In this document: one piece after another, positions 1 through 43,388 of the stretch | How positions within the stretch are numbered: position 1 is the stretch's first letter | Layout of the letters: every line of letters begins with the position of its first letter | Assembly (NCBI GenBank): GCA_944319885.1 | Contig: CALUFC010000001.1 | Location: 186,001 to 250,000, forward strand | Source of the DNA: an uncultured Coriobacteriaceae bacterium | Lineage (GTDB): Bacteria; Actinomycetota; Coriobacteriia; Coriobacteriales; Coriobacteriaceae | Direction of reading: 5' to 3' | Length of the DNA: 64,000 nt | Notes under the pieces: model-generated | The model's input: the letters and a program-made list of their open reading frames with translations, nothing else | Databases searched by the model: none | Told to the model about the DNA's origin: nothing | Position numbers and translations under genes: made by a program

Positions 1-202
1 TGCCCACCACCATGAAGATGAACTCGATCCAGCCCTCCTCCGGGTTCCAGTTGGCAAACGTGAACGGCACGCGCTCACCCGTTTCGTCGGCACGAACCAT
101 GAGGAATTGGCCGGCGTGCGCTTTCTTGGCCATCCTCGGGGCTTCGACGCGGAACTCGAAGACCTTCTCCGAGAACTGCGTCTTTTTCAGGATCTTGAAC
201 AT
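1..202 (-). CDS. N-terminal part of NfnA/SudB-like FAD/NAD-binding flavoprotein (cut by window edge)
   Basis: The reading frame starts with ATG at 202 on the minus strand, after an AGAGAGGGG ribosome site, and runs off the left edge after about 67 codons. The visible protein begins MFKILKKTQFSEKVFEFRVE and continues with a glycine/alanine-flanked AGQFLMVR stretch and PFTFANW. This is the FAD-binding beta-barrel opening of the sulfide dehydrogenase/dihydroorotate dehydrogenase electron-transfer family, which includes the small subunit of NADH-dependent ferredoxin:NADP oxidoreductase. The known role is moving electrons between NAD(P)H and ferredoxin through FAD and a [2Fe-2S] cluster. The partner large subunit and the cluster region would lie outside the window, so the exact member is not decided. 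Confidence 0.75.
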   Translation of the reverse strand, partial: MFKILKKTQFSEKVFEFRVEAPRMAKKAHAGQFLMVRADETGERVPFTFANWNPEEGWIEFIFMVVG

Positions 203-36029: not shown

Positions 36030-36202
36030 GTGCCTGCCCGTCCGCATTTCCAGCGGCGAAGACGTACCGTGTTCCCCATAAAATGATATCTGATTTGTAG
36101 CATTTAAGGCGATGGCTGAATGACGGAGCATGCCAGCCGCTGCGTGCTATGATGGGCGCAGCAATCTGCCGCTTCGCATGCGGCAACGAGAAAGGAAGCC
36201 AT

Positions 36203-37387
36203 ATGCTCAACGCTATTGAGGTTTCTCCCAAGGTTTGGTGGGTCGGCGGCATCGACTGGAACGAGCGCTCGTTCCACGGCTACACCACCGAGCGCGGTAT
36301 CACCTACAACGCCTACCTCATCATGGATAAGACGGTGACCCTCATCGACACCGCTAAGGCAACGTTTACCGATGAGTTCGTGCAGCGCATCAGCCAGGTG
36401 ATCGATCCGGCAAAGATCGAGCTCGTTGTTACCAACCATGTCGAGATGGATCACTCTGGCAGCCTGCCCAAGATCCACGAGCTCGCGCCCAAGGCGCGCA
36501 TCGTGGCGAGCGCGCCTGCCGGTGTGAACGAGATTCGCGCGCACTACGGCATCGAGGTCGAGGGCGTGAAGACCGGCGACAGCATCTGCATCGGCGAGCG
36601 CACGCTCCACTTCGTGCAGACGCCGATGGTCCACTGGCCCGACAACATGGTCACTTGGTGCCCCGAGGATGGCATCCTCTTCTCCAACGACGCCTTCGGC
36701 CAGCACTTCGCCACCACCAAGCGCTTCGACGACGAGAACGATCTCTGCGAGGTCATGAAGCAGGCCAAGAAGTACTACGCCAACATCGTGTGGCCCTATG
36801 GCGCCCAGGCGCAAAAGGCGCTCGCCGCGCTCGGCGGCCTCGATATCAAGCTCATCGCCCCCTCCCACGGCGTGATGTGGCGCAGCCATATCCCCGAGAT
36901 TCTCGAGAAGTACCAGGCGTGGAGCACGTATCAAACCGAGGAGAAGGCCGTTGTGGTCTACGACTCCATGTGGCACTCCACCGAGGCCATGGCGCGCGAG
37001 ATCACGGACGCGTTTATCAAGGAGGGCGTCTCCGCGCAGCTCATCGATGTGAAGCATACGCACATCTCGGACATCATGCTCTATCTCTGCGATGCCCGCT
37101 ACGTCGCGTGCGGCTCGCCCACCCTCAACTCCAACATGATGCCCACCATGGCGAGCTTCCTCACCTACATGCGCGGTCTCTCGCCTAAAAACGACCAGCG
37201 CATCGGCATCGCCTTCGGCTCGTATGGCTGGGCGCCGCTGGGACCCAAGCAGGTCTATGCCGAGATGGAGAACATGAAGTTCAACATGGCGGCTCCGGTT
37301 GTGGCGCAGCAGTGGATTCCCTCGGCGGAGAATCTTGCCGCGCTCCAGGAGACGGTTGCCAAGATCGTCGAGGACGCACGCGCCTAA
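36203..37387 (+). CDS. fprA: A-type flavoprotein (flavodiiron O2/NO reductase)
   Basis: 394 residues. The beta-lactamase-like diiron domain has NHVEMDHSGS (H-x-E-x-D-H ligands), PMVHWPDNMVTW, FSNDAFGQH and PSHGVMWR. From about residue 250 a flavodoxin domain (VVVYDSMWHSTEAMAREI, GSPTLNSNMMP, FGSYGWAP) binds FMN. Such proteins reduce O2 to water (or NO to N2O) in anaerobes, usually fed by rubredoxin. ATG 36203 follows AAAGGAAG. A small stem (TGCCGC...GCGGCA) sits in the leader. It is the gene before the hydrogenase operon but has its own terminator. Confidence 0.95.
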   Translation: MLNAIEVSPKVWWVGGIDWNERSFHGYTTERGITYNAYLIMDKTVTLIDTAKATFTDEFVQRISQVIDPAKIELVVTNHVEMDHSGSLPKIHELAPKARIVASAPAGVNEIRAHYGIEVEGVKTGDSICIGERTLHFVQTPMVHWPDNMVTWCPEDGILFSNDAFGQHFATTKRFDDENDLCEVMKQAKKYYANIVWPYGAQAQKALAALGGLDIKLIAPSHGVMWRSHIPEILEKYQAWSTYQTEEKAVVVYDSMWHSTEAMAREITDAFIKEGVSAQLIDVKHTHISDIMLYLCDARYVACGSPTLNSNMMPTMASFLTYMRGLSPKNDQRIGIAFGSYGWAPLGPKQVYAEMENMKFNMAAPVVAQQWIPSAENLAALQETVAKIVEDARA

Positions 37388-37615: not shown

Positions 37616-40480
37616 ATGGGAATCATTGCGTTTCTCGTTGCCGTTCCGCTGATAGCGGCGGCGTTGCTCATGCTGTTCCGTACGGATCAGCAGCGCAACG
37701 TCATCACCATCGCGGCGGCTGGCGCCACGGGTCTGGCATCCGTGGTGTTCGCGGTCCAGTACCTGTTCGCCGGGTACACCGTCTTCGCCTTGCCGCAGGA
37801 GGTGAGCTACATCACCACCTGGATCCTCACGGCCATCGACATTGTGCTGTGCGCCGTGATCCTGTGGTCGGCGGTGCGCTACGGCAACCGCACGGCGCTG
37901 GTGCTGGGCATCATCCAGACGCTGGGCGTTGTCTGGTTCGCCAACATGACGCTGCCCGAGGGTGCCGAGCATATGCTCGAGAACCCGGTCTACCTCGACC
38001 AGCTCTCGGTGATCATGGTGCTCATCGTGGGCCTGGTCGGCAGCGCCATCTGCGTGTACGCGCTCGGCTACATGAAGGATTTCCAGCATCATGAGCCCGA
38101 GGGCGCGCCTGATCGCCGCCACTTCTTCTCGGCGCTCATGTTCTTGTTCCTCTCGGCGATGTTCCTCATCGTGCTTTCCGACAACCTTGAGTGGATGTTC
38201 ACCGGCTGGGAGATCACCACGGTCTGCTCGTTCCTCATGATCGGCTACACCCGCACGCCCGAGGCGATCAAAAACTCCTTCCGTCAGATCAACCTCAACA
38301 TGATCGGCGGCCTCGCGTTCCTGGGTGCGCTCATCATCGTGCACCTCACCACGCTGCCGCTGTCGCTTGGCGCGCTCATCGCGGCGACGCATTCCATGGC
38401 ATCGCCCATCTTCATCCTGCCGGTTATGCTGCTTTCGGTCGCGGGCCTTACCAAGGCCGCGCAGATGCCGTTCCACAGCTGGCTGCTGGGTGCCATGGTG
38501 GCGCCCACGCCCACCTCGGCGCTGTTGCATTCCTCGACCATGGTCAAGGCGGGCGTCTTTTTGCTCGTGAAGCTTGCACCGGCCTACCAGGTGTATCCGG
38601 TGGCGTCCGCGATGGTCGTTGCCATCGGCGGCATCACCTTCGTGCTGTGCTCGTTCATGGCCATCACGCAGAGCAACGCCAAGCGCGTGCTCGCGTACTC
38701 CACGATCGCCAACCTCGGCCTCATCGCCGCGTGCTCGGGCGTGGGTACCTCCGAGGCCGTGTGGGCCGCGATCTTCCTGATCATCTTCCACACCGTGTCC
38801 AAGTCGGTGCTGTTCCTGTGCGTGGGTACGGTGGAGCATCGTATCGGCAGCCGCAACATCGAGGACATGGACGGGCTCTTCAGCCGCCTGCCGCATCTTA
38901 CGCGCTTCATGATGCTCGGCATCATGGGTATGTTCGTGGCGCCCTTCGGCATGCTCGTCTCCAAGTGGGCAACGCTGGTCTCGTTTGCCGAGACGGGCAA
39001 TGTACTCTTCCTCATCCTGCTCGCCTTCGGCTCGGCGGCGACGTTCTTCTTCTGGGCTAAGTGGCTCGGCAAGCTCGCCGGTGTGGCGCAGAAGGCCGAG
39101 AACGTCGAGGGCGGCGTGCATAAGTCCGAGTGGTTCTCCATCGGCTTCATCTCCTGCTTGCTCGTGGGTTGCTGCGTGCTGCTGCCGGTGATCTCGCAGA
39201 CGGTCGTGGGGCCCTATCTCGCGGGCGTCTACGGTGAGACGCCGCAGCTCATCGGCGTCGATAACATGATCATCATGGTCGCCATCGTGGTCTTCATCGC
39301 GATCGTGCTGCTTACGCCGTGGGGCCGCGCAACCAAGAAGCGCCGCGTCGAGGTGTACCTGGGCGGTCAGTGCACCGAGCCCGACAGCCGTCGTTTCCAT
39401 GGTTCCATGGGCCGCACCATGACCTCCACCAAGCGCAACTGGTATATGGAGGACGTCTTCCCCGAGGGCACGCTCACGCGCGTGGGCCTGATCATCTGCA
39501 TCTCGGTGCTGCTCATGGCGTTCGCGGCGTGCTTCATCTTCGATTTCGGCTTCTTGGCCGGCGGCTCGTTCATGGTCGATCGCGAGGTGCTGCTCGTGGG
39601 CCCCGATCTTCTGGGCATCCTGATTGGCACCGTGTGCTTCGCCATCGCAGCGCCGGTGGCGGGATTGCTGCTCGACGGCCTCGACCGCAAGGTGAGCGCC
39701 CATATGCAGGGCCGCGTGGGCCCCAAGATTCTGCAGCCCTACTATGACGTGCGCAAGCTCTTCACGAAGGAGCCGGCGAGCGTGAACGCGGTCGACGAGG
39801 CCTACGTCACCTGCGCGCTCATCTTCGCCATCATCGCAGGCGGCCTGTTTGTCTCCGGCTCCAACCTGCTCATGTGCGTCTTCTTGGTCACGCTCGCGAC
39901 GCTCTTCATGATCATCGCGGCGTACTCCTGCCGGAGCCCCTATGCCGACACCGGCGCCGACCGCGAGTGCCTGCAGGTCATGTCCTACGAGCCCATGCTC
40001 ATGATCATGACGGTGGGCTTCTTCACCGCCACGCAGTCGTTCGACATCGCGCGCCTCTTCCAGCTCGACATGCCCATCGTCACGTCGCTGCTGCCCATCT
40101 TCCTGGGTCTCATGTTCGTGCTCACCATCAAGCTGCGGAAGTCCCCGTTCGACCTCTCCTACAGCCATCATGCGCACCAGGAGATCGTCAAGGGCATCAC
40201 CACCGAGTTCTCGGGCCGCACGCTCGCGCTCGTCGAGATCATGCACTGGTGCGAGAGCGTGCTGTTTCTCATGTGGGTGGGCATGTTCTTCATCTGGGAC
40301 AACCCCATCTCGATCGTCGTCGCCATCGTTGCCGCGCTGGCCGCGTGGTTCTTCGAGGTTACGATCGATAACAACTTCGCGCGCATGAAGTGGCAGAACT
40401 GCCTCGGCGGCGCGTGGCTCGTGGCGCTCGTGGTGGGCGTCGTGAACCTGTTCTACGTCCTCATCACCCCGTTCATCTAA
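37616..40480 (+). CDS. Ech-type hydrogenase membrane subunits A and B fused (NuoL-like + NuoH-like)
   Basis: 954 residues in one frame. Residues 1 to about 650 form the antiporter-like subunit (HyfB/EchA/NuoL family): SVIMVLIVGLVGSAICVYALGY, the Lys/Glu-containing helices LEWMFTGWEITTVCSFLMIGY and GLTKAAQMPFHSWLLGAMVAPTPTSALLHSSTMVKAG. Residues 653-954 form the NuoH/EchB subunit with LDRKVSAHMQGRVGPKILQPYYDVRKLF, PYADTGADRE and SPFDLSYSHHAHQEIVKG. The junction GGSF-MVDREVLL has a Met at 653 but no ribosome site, so it is a true fusion. It forms the ion-pumping membrane arm. Confidence 0.92.
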   Translation: MGIIAFLVAVPLIAAALLMLFRTDQQRNVITIAAAGATGLASVVFAVQYLFAGYTVFALPQEVSYITTWILTAIDIVLCAVILWSAVRYGNRTALVLGIIQTLGVVWFANMTLPEGAEHMLENPVYLDQLSVIMVLIVGLVGSAICVYALGYMKDFQHHEPEGAPDRRHFFSALMFLFLSAMFLIVLSDNLEWMFTGWEITTVCSFLMIGYTRTPEAIKNSFRQINLNMIGGLAFLGALIIVHLTTLPLSLGALIAATHSMASPIFILPVMLLSVAGLTKAAQMPFHSWLLGAMVAPTPTSALLHSSTMVKAGVFLLVKLAPAYQVYPVASAMVVAIGGITFVLCSFMAITQSNAKRVLAYSTIANLGLIAACSGVGTSEAVWAAIFLIIFHTVSKSVLFLCVGTVEHRIGSRNIEDMDGLFSRLPHLTRFMMLGIMGMFVAPFGMLVSKWATLVSFAETGNVLFLILLAFGSAATFFFWAKWLGKLAGVAQKAENVEGGVHKSEWFSIGFISCLLVGCCVLLPVISQTVVGPYLAGVYGETPQLIGVDNMIIMVAIVVFIAIVLLTPWGRATKKRRVEVYLGGQCTEPDSRRFHGSMGRTMTSTKRNWYMEDVFPEGTLTRVGLIICISVLLMAFAACFIFDFGFLAGGSFMVDREVLLVGPDLLGILIGTVCFAIAAPVAGLLLDGLDRKVSAHMQGRVGPKILQPYYDVRKLFTKEPASVNAVDEAYVTCALIFAIIAGGLFVSGSNLLMCVFLVTLATLFMIIAAYSCRSPYADTGADRECLQVMSYEPMLMIMTVGFFTATQSFDIARLFQLDMPIVTSLLPIFLGLMFVLTIKLRKSPFDLSYSHHAHQEIVKGITTEFSGRTLALVEIMHWCESVLFLMWVGMFFIWDNPISIVVAIVAALAAWFFEVTIDNNFARMKWQNCLGGAWLVALVVGVVNLFYVLITPFI

Positions 40481-40490
40481 GGGAGCACAC

Positions 40491-40934
40491 ATGAGCTATT
40501 CTTCTAAATCACCGTGGCTCATCCATTACGACGGGTCGAGCTGCAACGGCTGCGATATCGAGGTGCTCGACTCGATGATGCCGCTCTACGATATCGAGCG
40601 CTTTGGCATCATCAACACGGGTAACCCCAAGCACGCCGACATCTTCTTGATCACCGGTGCGATCAACCATCAGAACGTCAACGTGGTGAAGCACATCTAC
40701 GACCAGATGCTCGAGCCCAAGGTTGTCGTGGCCTGCGGCATCTGCGCATGCACCGGCGGCGTGTTCAAGGACGCTTACAACGTGATCGGCGGTGCCGACA
40801 AGGCAATTCCCGTCGACGTGTACGCGCCGGGCTGCGCCGTGCGCCCCGAGACCATCATCGATGCGGTCTTGAAGGCCGTGAAGATCCTCGACGAGAAGGC
40901 GGCCAAGATGGGCGCCTCCGAGAAGAATCGCTAG
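40491..40934 (+). CDS. echC: Ech-type hydrogenase small subunit (NuoB/EchC-like)
   Basis: 147 residues with cluster-binding cysteines C18 and C21 (SSCNGCD), C82/C85/C87 (ACGICACTGG) and C115 (PGCAVRP). It holds the proximal [4Fe-4S] cluster that passes electrons to the NiFe site, matching EchC/HyfI. ATG 40491 follows AAGGGAG, 10 bp after the fusion gene. The next gene is 10 bp further. Confidence 0.94.
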   Translation: MSYSSKSPWLIHYDGSSCNGCDIEVLDSMMPLYDIERFGIINTGNPKHADIFLITGAINHQNVNVVKHIYDQMLEPKVVVACGICACTGGVFKDAYNVIGGADKAIPVDVYAPGCAVRPETIIDAVLKAVKILDEKAAKMGASEKNR

Positions 40935-40944
40935 GAGGGCGCGG

Positions 40945-41622
40945 ATGTATACCACCGAATTCGTTGACATCCCGCTGGGCGAGCTGCTCTACCGCGTGCA
41001 GTCGCTCAAGCACCAGGGATTCCGCTTTGTTCAGATGTGCGCCGAGACCACCGAGGCGGGTATCGATCTGCTCTACACCTTCTATGACGAGACGGTCGAC
41101 AACGCCTATAACCTGTGCGTCTACGGCATCGATGAGCAGAGCGAGGTGCCCTCGATCCAGGGCCTCTACTTCGCGGCGTTTAGCTACGAGAACGAGACGC
41201 ACGACCTCTTCGGCGTGCATTTCACCAACATGGAGCTCGATTTTGGCGGTCACTTCTTCAACGTGGCCGAGGAATCGCCCATGACGATCATCACGCCCGA
41301 GATGAAGGCCGAGCGCGAGAAGCTTGCCAAGCAGAAGGCCGCTGCTGCCGCTAAGGCGCGCAAGGCTGCGGAGGCCAAGCAGGCCGCCGAGGCCGAGGCT
41401 GCGGCCGATGCCAAGGAGGCCGCGGTCGCGGCCGGCAAGAGCGCCGGCGCCGTGGCCGACAAGGCCGATCCCGCTGCGGTGGCAGATGCTGCGGCCAAGG
41501 AGGCCGAGCGCGCTGCCAAGATGGAGGAGAAGCTCGCCGCCATGGATCCCGAGAAGGCTGCAAAGGTTCGCGCTGCGCTTGCCGCCAAGGCTGCCAAGTC
41601 TGCGCAGAAGGATGGTGAGTAA
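40945..41622 (+). CDS. echD: Ech-type hydrogenase subunit D (NuoC-like) with Lys/Ala-rich tail
   Basis: 225 residues. The first 115 resemble the 30-kDa/NuoC-like subunit: YRVQSLKHQGFRFVQMCAE, YFAAFSYENETHDLFGVHF and MELDFGGHFFN, which joins the large subunit. From about 120 to the end is a low-complexity Ala/Lys/Glu tail finishing AKMEEKLAAMDPEKAAKVRA and a further Ala/Lys run. The same tail pattern occurs in the last subunit of the operon. Normal EchD is near 120 residues. Confidence 0.9.
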   Translation: MYTTEFVDIPLGELLYRVQSLKHQGFRFVQMCAETTEAGIDLLYTFYDETVDNAYNLCVYGIDEQSEVPSIQGLYFAAFSYENETHDLFGVHFTNMELDFGGHFFNVAEESPMTIITPEMKAEREKLAKQKAAAAAKARKAAEAKQAAEAEAAADAKEAAVAAGKSAGAVADKADPAAVADAAAKEAERAAKMEEKLAAMDPEKAAKVRAALAAKAAKSAQKDGE

Positions 41623-41624
41623 GC

Positions 41625-42713
41625 ATGGCAACCCGTTCCATCATTCCGTTTGGCCCGCAGCATCCCGTGCTGCCCGAGCCCATCCACCTCGATCTCGTGG
41701 TTGAGGACGAGAAGGTGCTCGAGGCCATCCCGCAGATCGGTTTCGTGCACCGCGGGCTCGAGAAGCTCACGCAGAAGCGCGACTACAACCAGTTCGTTTA
41801 CATCGCCGAGCGCACCTGCGGCATCTGCAGCCACGGCCACGGCTATGGCTATGTGAGCGCAACCGAGAAGCTGCTGGGCATCGAGGTGCCGCGCCGCGCG
41901 GTGTACCTGCGCGACATCCTCGAGGAGCTCTCGCGCATCCATTCTCATCTGCTGTGGCTGGGCCTTTTGGCCGACGCCTTCGGCTTCGAGTCGCTCTTCA
42001 ACCACTGCTGGCGCCTGCGCGAGAACATCCTCGACATCTTCCAGCGCACCTGCGGCGGCCGCATCATCCTGTCCATCCTCGTGGTGGGCGGCATGGCGCA
42101 CGACATCGAGGACTCCGAGCTCAAGGCTATCTGCGACAAGCTCGACAGCATGCGCAAGGAGTACCAGATCATCATGGACACCATGATGAACGATACGTCG
42201 GTTAAGAGCCGTCTGTGCGGTGTGGGCTCCATCACGTTCGAGGATGCCATGGAGCTCTCCATGGTCGGCCCCTTTGCGAAGGGGTCGGGTATCGAGCACG
42301 ACATGCGCACCACGGGCTACGGCGCCTACGGCGACCTCGACCACTTCGAGCCGATCATCTCCAACGAGTGCGACTGCTACGCGCGCTGCAAGGTGCGCGC
42401 GCAGGAGGTCGTGCAGTCCATGGACATCATCAAGGAGTTCGTGGCGAAGATCCCGCACGACGGTATCGGCGGCAAGGCGAAGGCGAAGGTTGTCCCGGAG
42501 GGCCAGAGCCACGTGCTCATCGAGCAGCCCCGCGGCGAGGCGTTCTACTACGTGCGCGGCAATGGTACCAAGTACCTCGACCGCTTCCGTCTGCGCACGC
42601 CCACATCGCAGAACCTGGGCGGCTTGGTCAAGGCGCTGCAGGGCGTCGATCTGGCCGATGTCCCGATGATCATCCTCACGATCGACCCGTGCATCAGCTG
42701 CACGGAAAGGTAG
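41625..42713 (+). CDS. echE: Ech-type [NiFe]-hydrogenase large subunit
   Basis: 362 residues. All four nickel-ligand cysteines are present: C65 and C68 in ERTCGICSHGH, and C356 and C359 in DPCISCTER at the C-terminus. Complex I NuoD lacks these, so this is a true hydrogenase subunit, group 4 Ech type. Other marks are PFGPQHPVLPEP, LEELSRIHSHLLWLGLLAD and CGGRIILSILVVGG. The chain stops three residues after the last cysteine, so there is no C-terminal peptide to be cleaved during maturation, as in Ech enzymes. It overlaps no neighbour; spacing to echD is 2 bp. Confidence 0.95.
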   Translation: MATRSIIPFGPQHPVLPEPIHLDLVVEDEKVLEAIPQIGFVHRGLEKLTQKRDYNQFVYIAERTCGICSHGHGYGYVSATEKLLGIEVPRRAVYLRDILEELSRIHSHLLWLGLLADAFGFESLFNHCWRLRENILDIFQRTCGGRIILSILVVGGMAHDIEDSELKAICDKLDSMRKEYQIIMDTMMNDTSVKSRLCGVGSITFEDAMELSMVGPFAKGSGIEHDMRTTGYGAYGDLDHFEPIISNECDCYARCKVRAQEVVQSMDIIKEFVAKIPHDGIGGKAKAKVVPEGQSHVLIEQPRGEAFYYVRGNGTKYLDRFRLRTPTSQNLGGLVKALQGVDLADVPMIILTIDPCISCTER

Positions 42714-42719
42714 GCCAGC

Positions 42720-43388
42720 ATGGGAATGTTCAAACTTGCCAAGATGACGCTGCGCTCGCTCGTGAGCAAGCCGGCAACGGTGCGCTATCCGTATGAGAAG
42801 CGCGATTTGGAGCATCTGTTCCCGCAGATGCGCGGGCATTTGGTGAACGATATCGATGCCTGCATCCTGTGCGGCATGTGCCAGCGCGTCTGCCCCGTTG
42901 GCGCCATCACCGTCGATCGCAAGGCGGGCGATTGGAAGCTCGAGCCGTATATGTGCATCTCCTGCGCGAGTTGCACCTACGATTGCCCCAAGAACTGCCT
43001 CTCGATGGCGGTGCTGCCCACCGAGCCCACCGAGGAGCTCAAGACCATCACGATGCACAAGGATATGCCCGCGAAGCCTGCGCGTCCCGCAGCGGGCAAA
43101 GCCGCGGCCGGCAAGGCGGCAGCTGGCAAGGCGGCGGGCCCCAAGAAGGAGCTCACGCCCGAGCAGCAGGCACGTGTCGAGGCGGCGCGCAAGGCCGCTG
43201 CGGCCAAGAAGGCCGCGAAGGCTGCCGAGGGCTCCTCGGCATCAGCCGCCGAGAAGCCGGCGGCTGATGCCGCTCAGGCTGAGCGCGATGCCAAGATGGA
43301 GGCGAAGCTCGCTGCGATGGATCCCGAGAAGGCCGCGAAGGTGCGCGCCGCACTCGAGGCGCGTGCCAAAAAGGACGCCGCCGAGTAG
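42720..43388 (+). CDS. echF: Ech-type hydrogenase subunit F (8Fe ferredoxin) with Lys/Ala-rich tail
   Basis: 222 residues. Two [4Fe-4S] motifs, CILCGMCQRVCP (48-59) and CISCASCTYDCP (79-90), form the ferredoxin-facing electron entry. From about 110 onward the chain is an Ala/Lys/Pro-rich tail ending AKMEAKLAAMDPEKAAKVRA and ALEARAKKDAAE, nearly the same as the echD tail. Ordinary EchF ends near 120-140 residues. It is the last gene; hyp maturation genes are absent from the window. Confidence 0.93.
   Translation: MGMFKLAKMTLRSLVSKPATVRYPYEKRDLEHLFPQMRGHLVNDIDACILCGMCQRVCPVGAITVDRKAGDWKLEPYMCISCASCTYDCPKNCLSMAVLPTEPTEELKTITMHKDMPAKPARPAAGKAAAGKAAAGKAAGPKKELTPEQQARVEAARKAAAAKKAAKAAEGSSASAAEKPAADAAQAERDAKMEAKLAAMDPEKAAKVRAALEARAKKDAAE

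Follow-up and report, generated by a model that had tools for sequence, protein, structure and literature searches.

A conserved C-terminal block shared by Ech hydrogenase subunits and some NfnA proteins of Coriobacteriia, a putative docking module of ferredoxin-linked enzymes

The stretch of DNA analysed here (64,000 nucleotides from an uncultured Coriobacteriaceae bacterium, hereafter the window) harbours on its forward strand a gene cluster encoding an Ech (group 4 NiFe) hydrogenase. Reading of the open frames identified echA-echB as a single 954-codon frame (37616-40480, + strand), followed by the NuoB-like small subunit gene echC (40491-40934, +) and the NiFe large subunit gene echE (41625-42713, +), whose CGIC and CISC motifs lie in the two nickel-ligand CxxC pairs, RTCGIC close to the N-terminal end and DPCISC at the C-terminal end. 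Two further genes are the subject of this study: echD (40945-41622, +), encoding a NuoC-like subunit of 225 aa with a Complex1_30kDa core at residues 1-112 (PF00329, 32.6 bits for a cut-off of 22.5), and echF (42720-43388, +), encoding a NuoI-like subunit of 222 aa with two 4Fe-4S motifs (CILCGMCQRVCP and CISCASCTYDCP; Fer4 families above cut-off). Both cores are those of an ordinary Ech hydrogenase, but each is prolonged by a C-terminal tail which, with the block described below, lies outside the Pfam matches above cut-offs. The EchA-EchB fusion is kept in those Coriobacteriaceae loci whose length allows it to be seen; in the Eggerthellaceae loci L100, L101, L104, L112 and L113, EchA and EchB have separate frames, which overlap or lie side by side. 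Immediately upstream of the cluster, a flavodiiron protein (flavorubredoxin-like) is encoded at 36149-37387 (+), scoring 347 bits against NF008887, below the cut-off of 635.

The tails start at about residue 117 in EchD and 108 in EchF, extend over about 109 and 115 residues, and are rich in alanine (42% and 37%, respectively) and lysine (17% in both). In EchD, a proximal Ala/Lys helix predicted at residues 118-162 (41296-41430, +), starting from the PE of an ITPE motif, precedes a variable and mostly disordered linker (residues ~163-187; 41431-41505, +) and a distal block at residues 191-218 (41515-41598, +). The EchF tail comprises a proximal Ala/Lys stretch, LTPEQQARVEAARKAAAAKKAAKAAE (residues 145-170; 43152-43229, +), of a type also found in tail-bearing Coriobacteriaceae EchF without block, and a distal block, again at residues 191-218 (43290-43373, +). 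The two blocks are identical at 24 of 28 residues, including an exact 17-residue word, KLAAMDPEKAAKVRAAL, at residues 196-212 of both proteins (41530-41580 in echD and 43305-43355 in echF, both +). The initial annotation had proposed that EchD and EchF share an Ala/Lys-rich tail with a closing motif too specific for composition alone; our comparison agrees, and extends the shared element to 28 residues. The conserved last residues of EchD (K[DE]GE, 41608-41619, +) read AAGGATGGTGAG here and AAGGAGGGGGAG in locus L096; their codons probably spell out the ribosome-binding site of echE, and similar endings also precede nfnB in NfnA genes.

Tails of such biased composition could resemble each other through low-complexity drift in a GC-rich genome or through recent copying. 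The local alignment of the EchD and EchF tails nevertheless scored 187, for a mean of 97 (sd 9.4) and a maximum of 147 over 20,000 composition shuffles, and the longest word common to both tails in any of 5,000 shuffles reached 11 residues, compared to 17 in the real tails. Likewise, most real blocks scored about 40-61 bits against a block profile, for a best score of 9.9 among 32,200 shuffled tails and 23.6 among 50,000 order-2 Markov tails. At the nucleotide level, identical codons were used at 14 of the 24 shared block residues, codon usage predicting 14.1, and synonymous sites were mostly saturated between the two copies; since codon agreement only reaches this expectation, the copies appear old as DNA and alike as protein. 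Codon sharing pooled over genomes was slightly high, both between EchD and EchF (205/309 for 178.5 expected) and between tandem copies (525/904 for 471.6 expected), with two genomes standing out (L147 and L152), so that occasional copying is possible. Recent gene duplication or conversion was rejected as the main cause, the window pair matching expectation and the pooled excess being mild among related genomes.

Searching 297 genomes of the order with a 15-row block profile recovered the block in 128 of them, 55 from the family of the window and 73 from a second family, which we take from named records to be Coriobacteriaceae and Eggerthellaceae, respectively; the profile had no match in the other families of the order that were sampled, and the block is missing from their Ech. 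In the phylum-wide search, 21 of 396 genomes matched, all within the same two families. EchD was detected (E ≤ 1e-20) in 55 of the 65 genomes of the window's family, and 54 genomes were common to the EchD and block lists, the exceptions being G073, with a degenerate block on its EchD, and G008, with a fragmented contig. Named records of 84,980 species contained at least 20 block loci, the matches listed including Collinsella, Candidatus Coprousia, Candidatus Limicola, Ellagibacter, Adlercreutzia, Parvibacter and other Coriobacteriia or uncultured bacteria; some of our genomes are the same organism as named loci, and identical tails were merged. Within its own genome, the block matched at the EchD and EchF places only (search E ≤ 1; profile E ≤ 0.01). 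The motif is thus retained by the orthologues of Coriobacteriaceae and of most Eggerthellaceae sampled, with no random matches elsewhere in the genome; its absence from orthologues or a random occurrence in the genome would, for the initial annotation, have been grounds for dismissing it.

Among the matches listed, the block is hosted nearly always by EchD, in 1-5 copies, by EchF in a minority of cases and by NfnA in some Eggerthellaceae; the 40 regions of the second family likewise carried it on EchD (1-5 copies), EchF or NfnA. The 177 unique block-bearing open frames comprised 128 EchD, 22 EchF and 6 NfnA, the remaining 21, without assigned host, looking like EchD ends truncated at a locus edge or by masked sequence. 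Weak extra matches to further proteins were rejected as hosts: those translated fall in unrelated frames, one being a short match in the globular part of an unidentified open frame, one lying in a frame that resembles the YchF GTPase, and further ones in frames that lack an Ala/Lys tail. The L280 candidate was likewise unrelated.

The initial annotation had suggested that the EchD and EchF tails may pair with each other; such pairing inside one complex is in line with the presence of the block on both subunits in the genus of the window and close genera, and with one lineage (the three-copy EchF genome, L204) sharing a variant, MPPEKAAKFRAA, between EchF and EchD. Blocks were counted over 120 distinct, complete EchD and EchF pairs, leaving out incomplete, masked or poorly aligned loci; the window pair is not among the 120, as none of the loci retrieved contained both of its genes in full. 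Expressed as (EchD, EchF) copies, the combinations were (1,0) in 53 pairs, (2,0) in 35, (0,0) in 16, (1,1) in 9, (3,0) and (2,1) in two each, and (4,0), (3,1) and (1,3) in one each. Blocks were therefore restricted to EchD in 91 pairs, and as most genomes carry the block on EchD alone, tail pairing is largely refuted as a general function and highly improbable as an explanation of the block. In two genomes (G217 and G265), the blocks listed fall on the frame assigned to EchF (L262 and L264). EchF carriers are scattered: they occur in the genus of the window and two neighbouring genera, in a small number of Eggerthellaceae and in the three-copy genome, a distribution which suggests repeated gain of the block on EchF; the number of separate gains on EchF and NfnA was judged from such distribution. 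Scanning 297 frames past the stop of block-less EchF gave 0 hits for block remnants. In two Eggerthellaceae ech loci (L194 and L112), EchD and EchF both end in the divergent DEQLxALIGLMDxEKAAxVxxAL or a close form, a second case of a genome with its own block version on the two subunits.

NfnA, a subunit of the ferredoxin:NADP transhydrogenase, provides the additional redox subunit that the initial annotation had envisaged as marked by the motif. The block was found on 7 of the 26 Eggerthellaceae NfnA C-termini (genera g69, g89 and g92, with G189 among the carriers). The identity of these proteins was supported, in all nine block-bearing loci examined (9/9), by the ERxPxT and DGTGMCGxCRx10CV motifs and an adjacent nfnB, and by a score of 384 bits against NF004862 (cut-off 220); both motifs are given for NfnA in PMC6405883. 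The other 19 Eggerthellaceae NfnA are devoid of block, as is the nfnA of the window genome itself, which rules out a link between Ech and Nfn as the general function of the block. The 5' part of this last gene occupies positions 1-202 (-) and runs out of the window, its start being estimated from locus coordinates. In NfnAB, again according to PMC6405883, docking places ferredoxin on NfnB and not on NfnA.

Selective constraints were estimated on 28 aligned Coriobacteriaceae EchD. The block displayed a mean identity of 0.80 with 1% gaps and a pN/pS of 0.285, compared to 0.73 and 0.373 for the enzyme core; the proximal helix (residues 113-146) was moderately conserved (0.71 and 0.549), and the linker varied widely (identity 0.52, 40% gaps, pN/pS 0.609). 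By these alignment-based measures, purifying selection acts on the block with a strength at least equal to that on the core, answering in favour of conservation the initial annotation's call to weigh it against neutral drift. An end that stays conserved while the linker before it drifts is what a tethered functional module would show. With the shuffle and Markov controls and the conservation across two families, this selection refutes low-complexity drift for the block; the linker around it may well be such sequence. Constancy across 157 unique blocks was highest at P1, A9, A10, A5, K3, A4, K-5, E2, D0, R8 and V7, and hydrophobic residues were conserved at -8, -4, -1, 7 and 11. The resulting pattern of about 28 residues consists of a helix [ML]EAKLAxM, a turn DPE and a helix KAAKVRAA[LM], whose conserved D0, P1, R8 and hydrophobic positions are more in keeping with a specific surface than with bulk charge.

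An AlphaFold model of EchD (16 sequences, single chain) predicted helices at residues 118-162, 178-198 and 202-222, the last two separated by a break at the MDP turn within the block, with a pLDDT of about 65-72 for the block, falling below 50 in the linker (low over residues 165-180). The multi-copy EchD of Ellagibacter (L100), also modelled as a single chain, gave helices at 180-216, 220-259 and 263-288, with a pLDDT of up to 89 near the end. These models point, with modest confidence, to a helix-turn-helix unit on a flexible tether. Among PDB structures, the core of the EchD model matched NuoC-type chains of complex I (foldseek, E = 1.9e-7) and an MBS chain; a PDB sequence search with the block returned short weak matches only. 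Anchoring to the membrane surface by an amphipathic helix, in line with the lipid binding proposed at first, would suit a membrane-bound Ech with an often basic tail, but the hydrophobic moments of both block helices were ordinary, a fraction of 0.11 to 0.91 of shuffles being at least as high, and we consider it very unlikely.

The long proximal helix predicted in EchD raises another option, in which the tail would act as a structural clamp on the Ech complex that bears it, stabilising the peripheral arm (for instance EchD against EchF or EchC) in the manner of a long accessory helix. The nearly constant presence of the block on EchD in block-bearing genomes is in line with such a clamp, as is the long C-terminal helix of Azotobacter vinelandii RnfC, which contacts RnfB and RnfH and whose function is not understood according to a review (PMC12174285). 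A linker of variable length, with its many gaps, and a copy number of one to five would both be odd for a clamp within one complex, and the block is also borne by the unrelated, soluble NfnA; a clamp thus seems unlikely.

An electrostatic lure, in which a basic Ala/Lys helix would raise the local concentration of acidic ferredoxin, draws on the fact that EchD, EchF and NfnA all belong to ferredoxin-dependent enzymes and on median net charges of +2 for the block and +4 for the EchD tail. Exact residues are conserved, but the net charge of the tail is not, ranging from -6 to +9 over 104 EchD tails and from -7 to +6 over block-bearing EchF tails, and many EchF, presumed to be the ferredoxin-side subunit, lack any tail (113 aa), which leaves such a lure with a rather low probability. 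The basic end initially attributed to the tails does not hold, the C-termini being mixed in charge (KSAQKDGE in EchD and KKDAAE in EchF). Ferredoxin binding through a putative tail contact is possible.

The closest resemblance among known systems is offered by Escherichia coli RsxC (RnfC), a subunit of an Rnf-type electron-transfer complex whose C-terminus carries six tandem Ala/Lys/Arg-rich repeats, DPRKAAVEAAIARAKARK, opening with DP. These repeats differ from the block by lacking the upstream [ML]EAKLAxM helix, and profile comparison with hhalign gave a probability of 20% over 21 columns for the repeat and 1% for whole RsxC, values that do not demonstrate homology. The encapsulation peptides of microcompartments and encapsulins are short conserved helices that follow a low-complexity linker at one end of a protein. 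The block shares this architecture, but its own genome had no match to PF00936 (microcompartment shell) or PF04454 (encapsulin), making a shell-cargo tag or compartment targeting unlikely. Among 36 genomes, one from another family encoded a microcompartment shell and none an encapsulin; a relative from family f6 contains a cluster of eight shell matches (G041:C25:2532-12777). In the literature searched on Ech tails and block motif strings, we found no description of the block, which has the appearance of an attachment tag not described so far, as opposed to random low-complexity sequence.

For a repeated, specific and tethered helix-turn-helix borne by three subunits of ferredoxin-dependent enzymes, the best reading is a putative docking module, retaining the localisation role among the functions first proposed. 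We give even chances to the block being a candidate module that brings ferredoxin-linked enzymes together or to a protein partner they share. It would fold as a helix-turn-helix, tandem copies forming long helices with a break at every DP, and would make a specific contact with a protein. This partner may be another block copy on a neighbouring complex, through homotypic pairing between separate complexes, or a protein that ferredoxin-linked enzymes have in common, for instance ferredoxin itself or a ferredoxin reductant. Ech, and sometimes Nfn, would thereby be held close to the partner and the electron path shortened. More speculatively, and with little confidence, the block could act as a reusable address tag clustering the ferredoxin enzymes of Coriobacteriia (Ech and, in some lineages, Nfn) for electron channelling, through homotypic pairing or a shared partner, with copy number tuning avidity.

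Free ferredoxin is seen as the carrier of low-potential electrons in anaerobes. A conserved tag present both on a membrane hydrogenase and on a soluble transhydrogenase would suggest a physical organisation of the ferredoxin pool, in bacteria that include common gut genera such as Collinsella, Adlercreutzia, Parvibacter and Ellagibacter. As a short peptide, the block can be used directly as bait for its partner, and it may help with the similarly unexplained C-terminal tail of RnfC.
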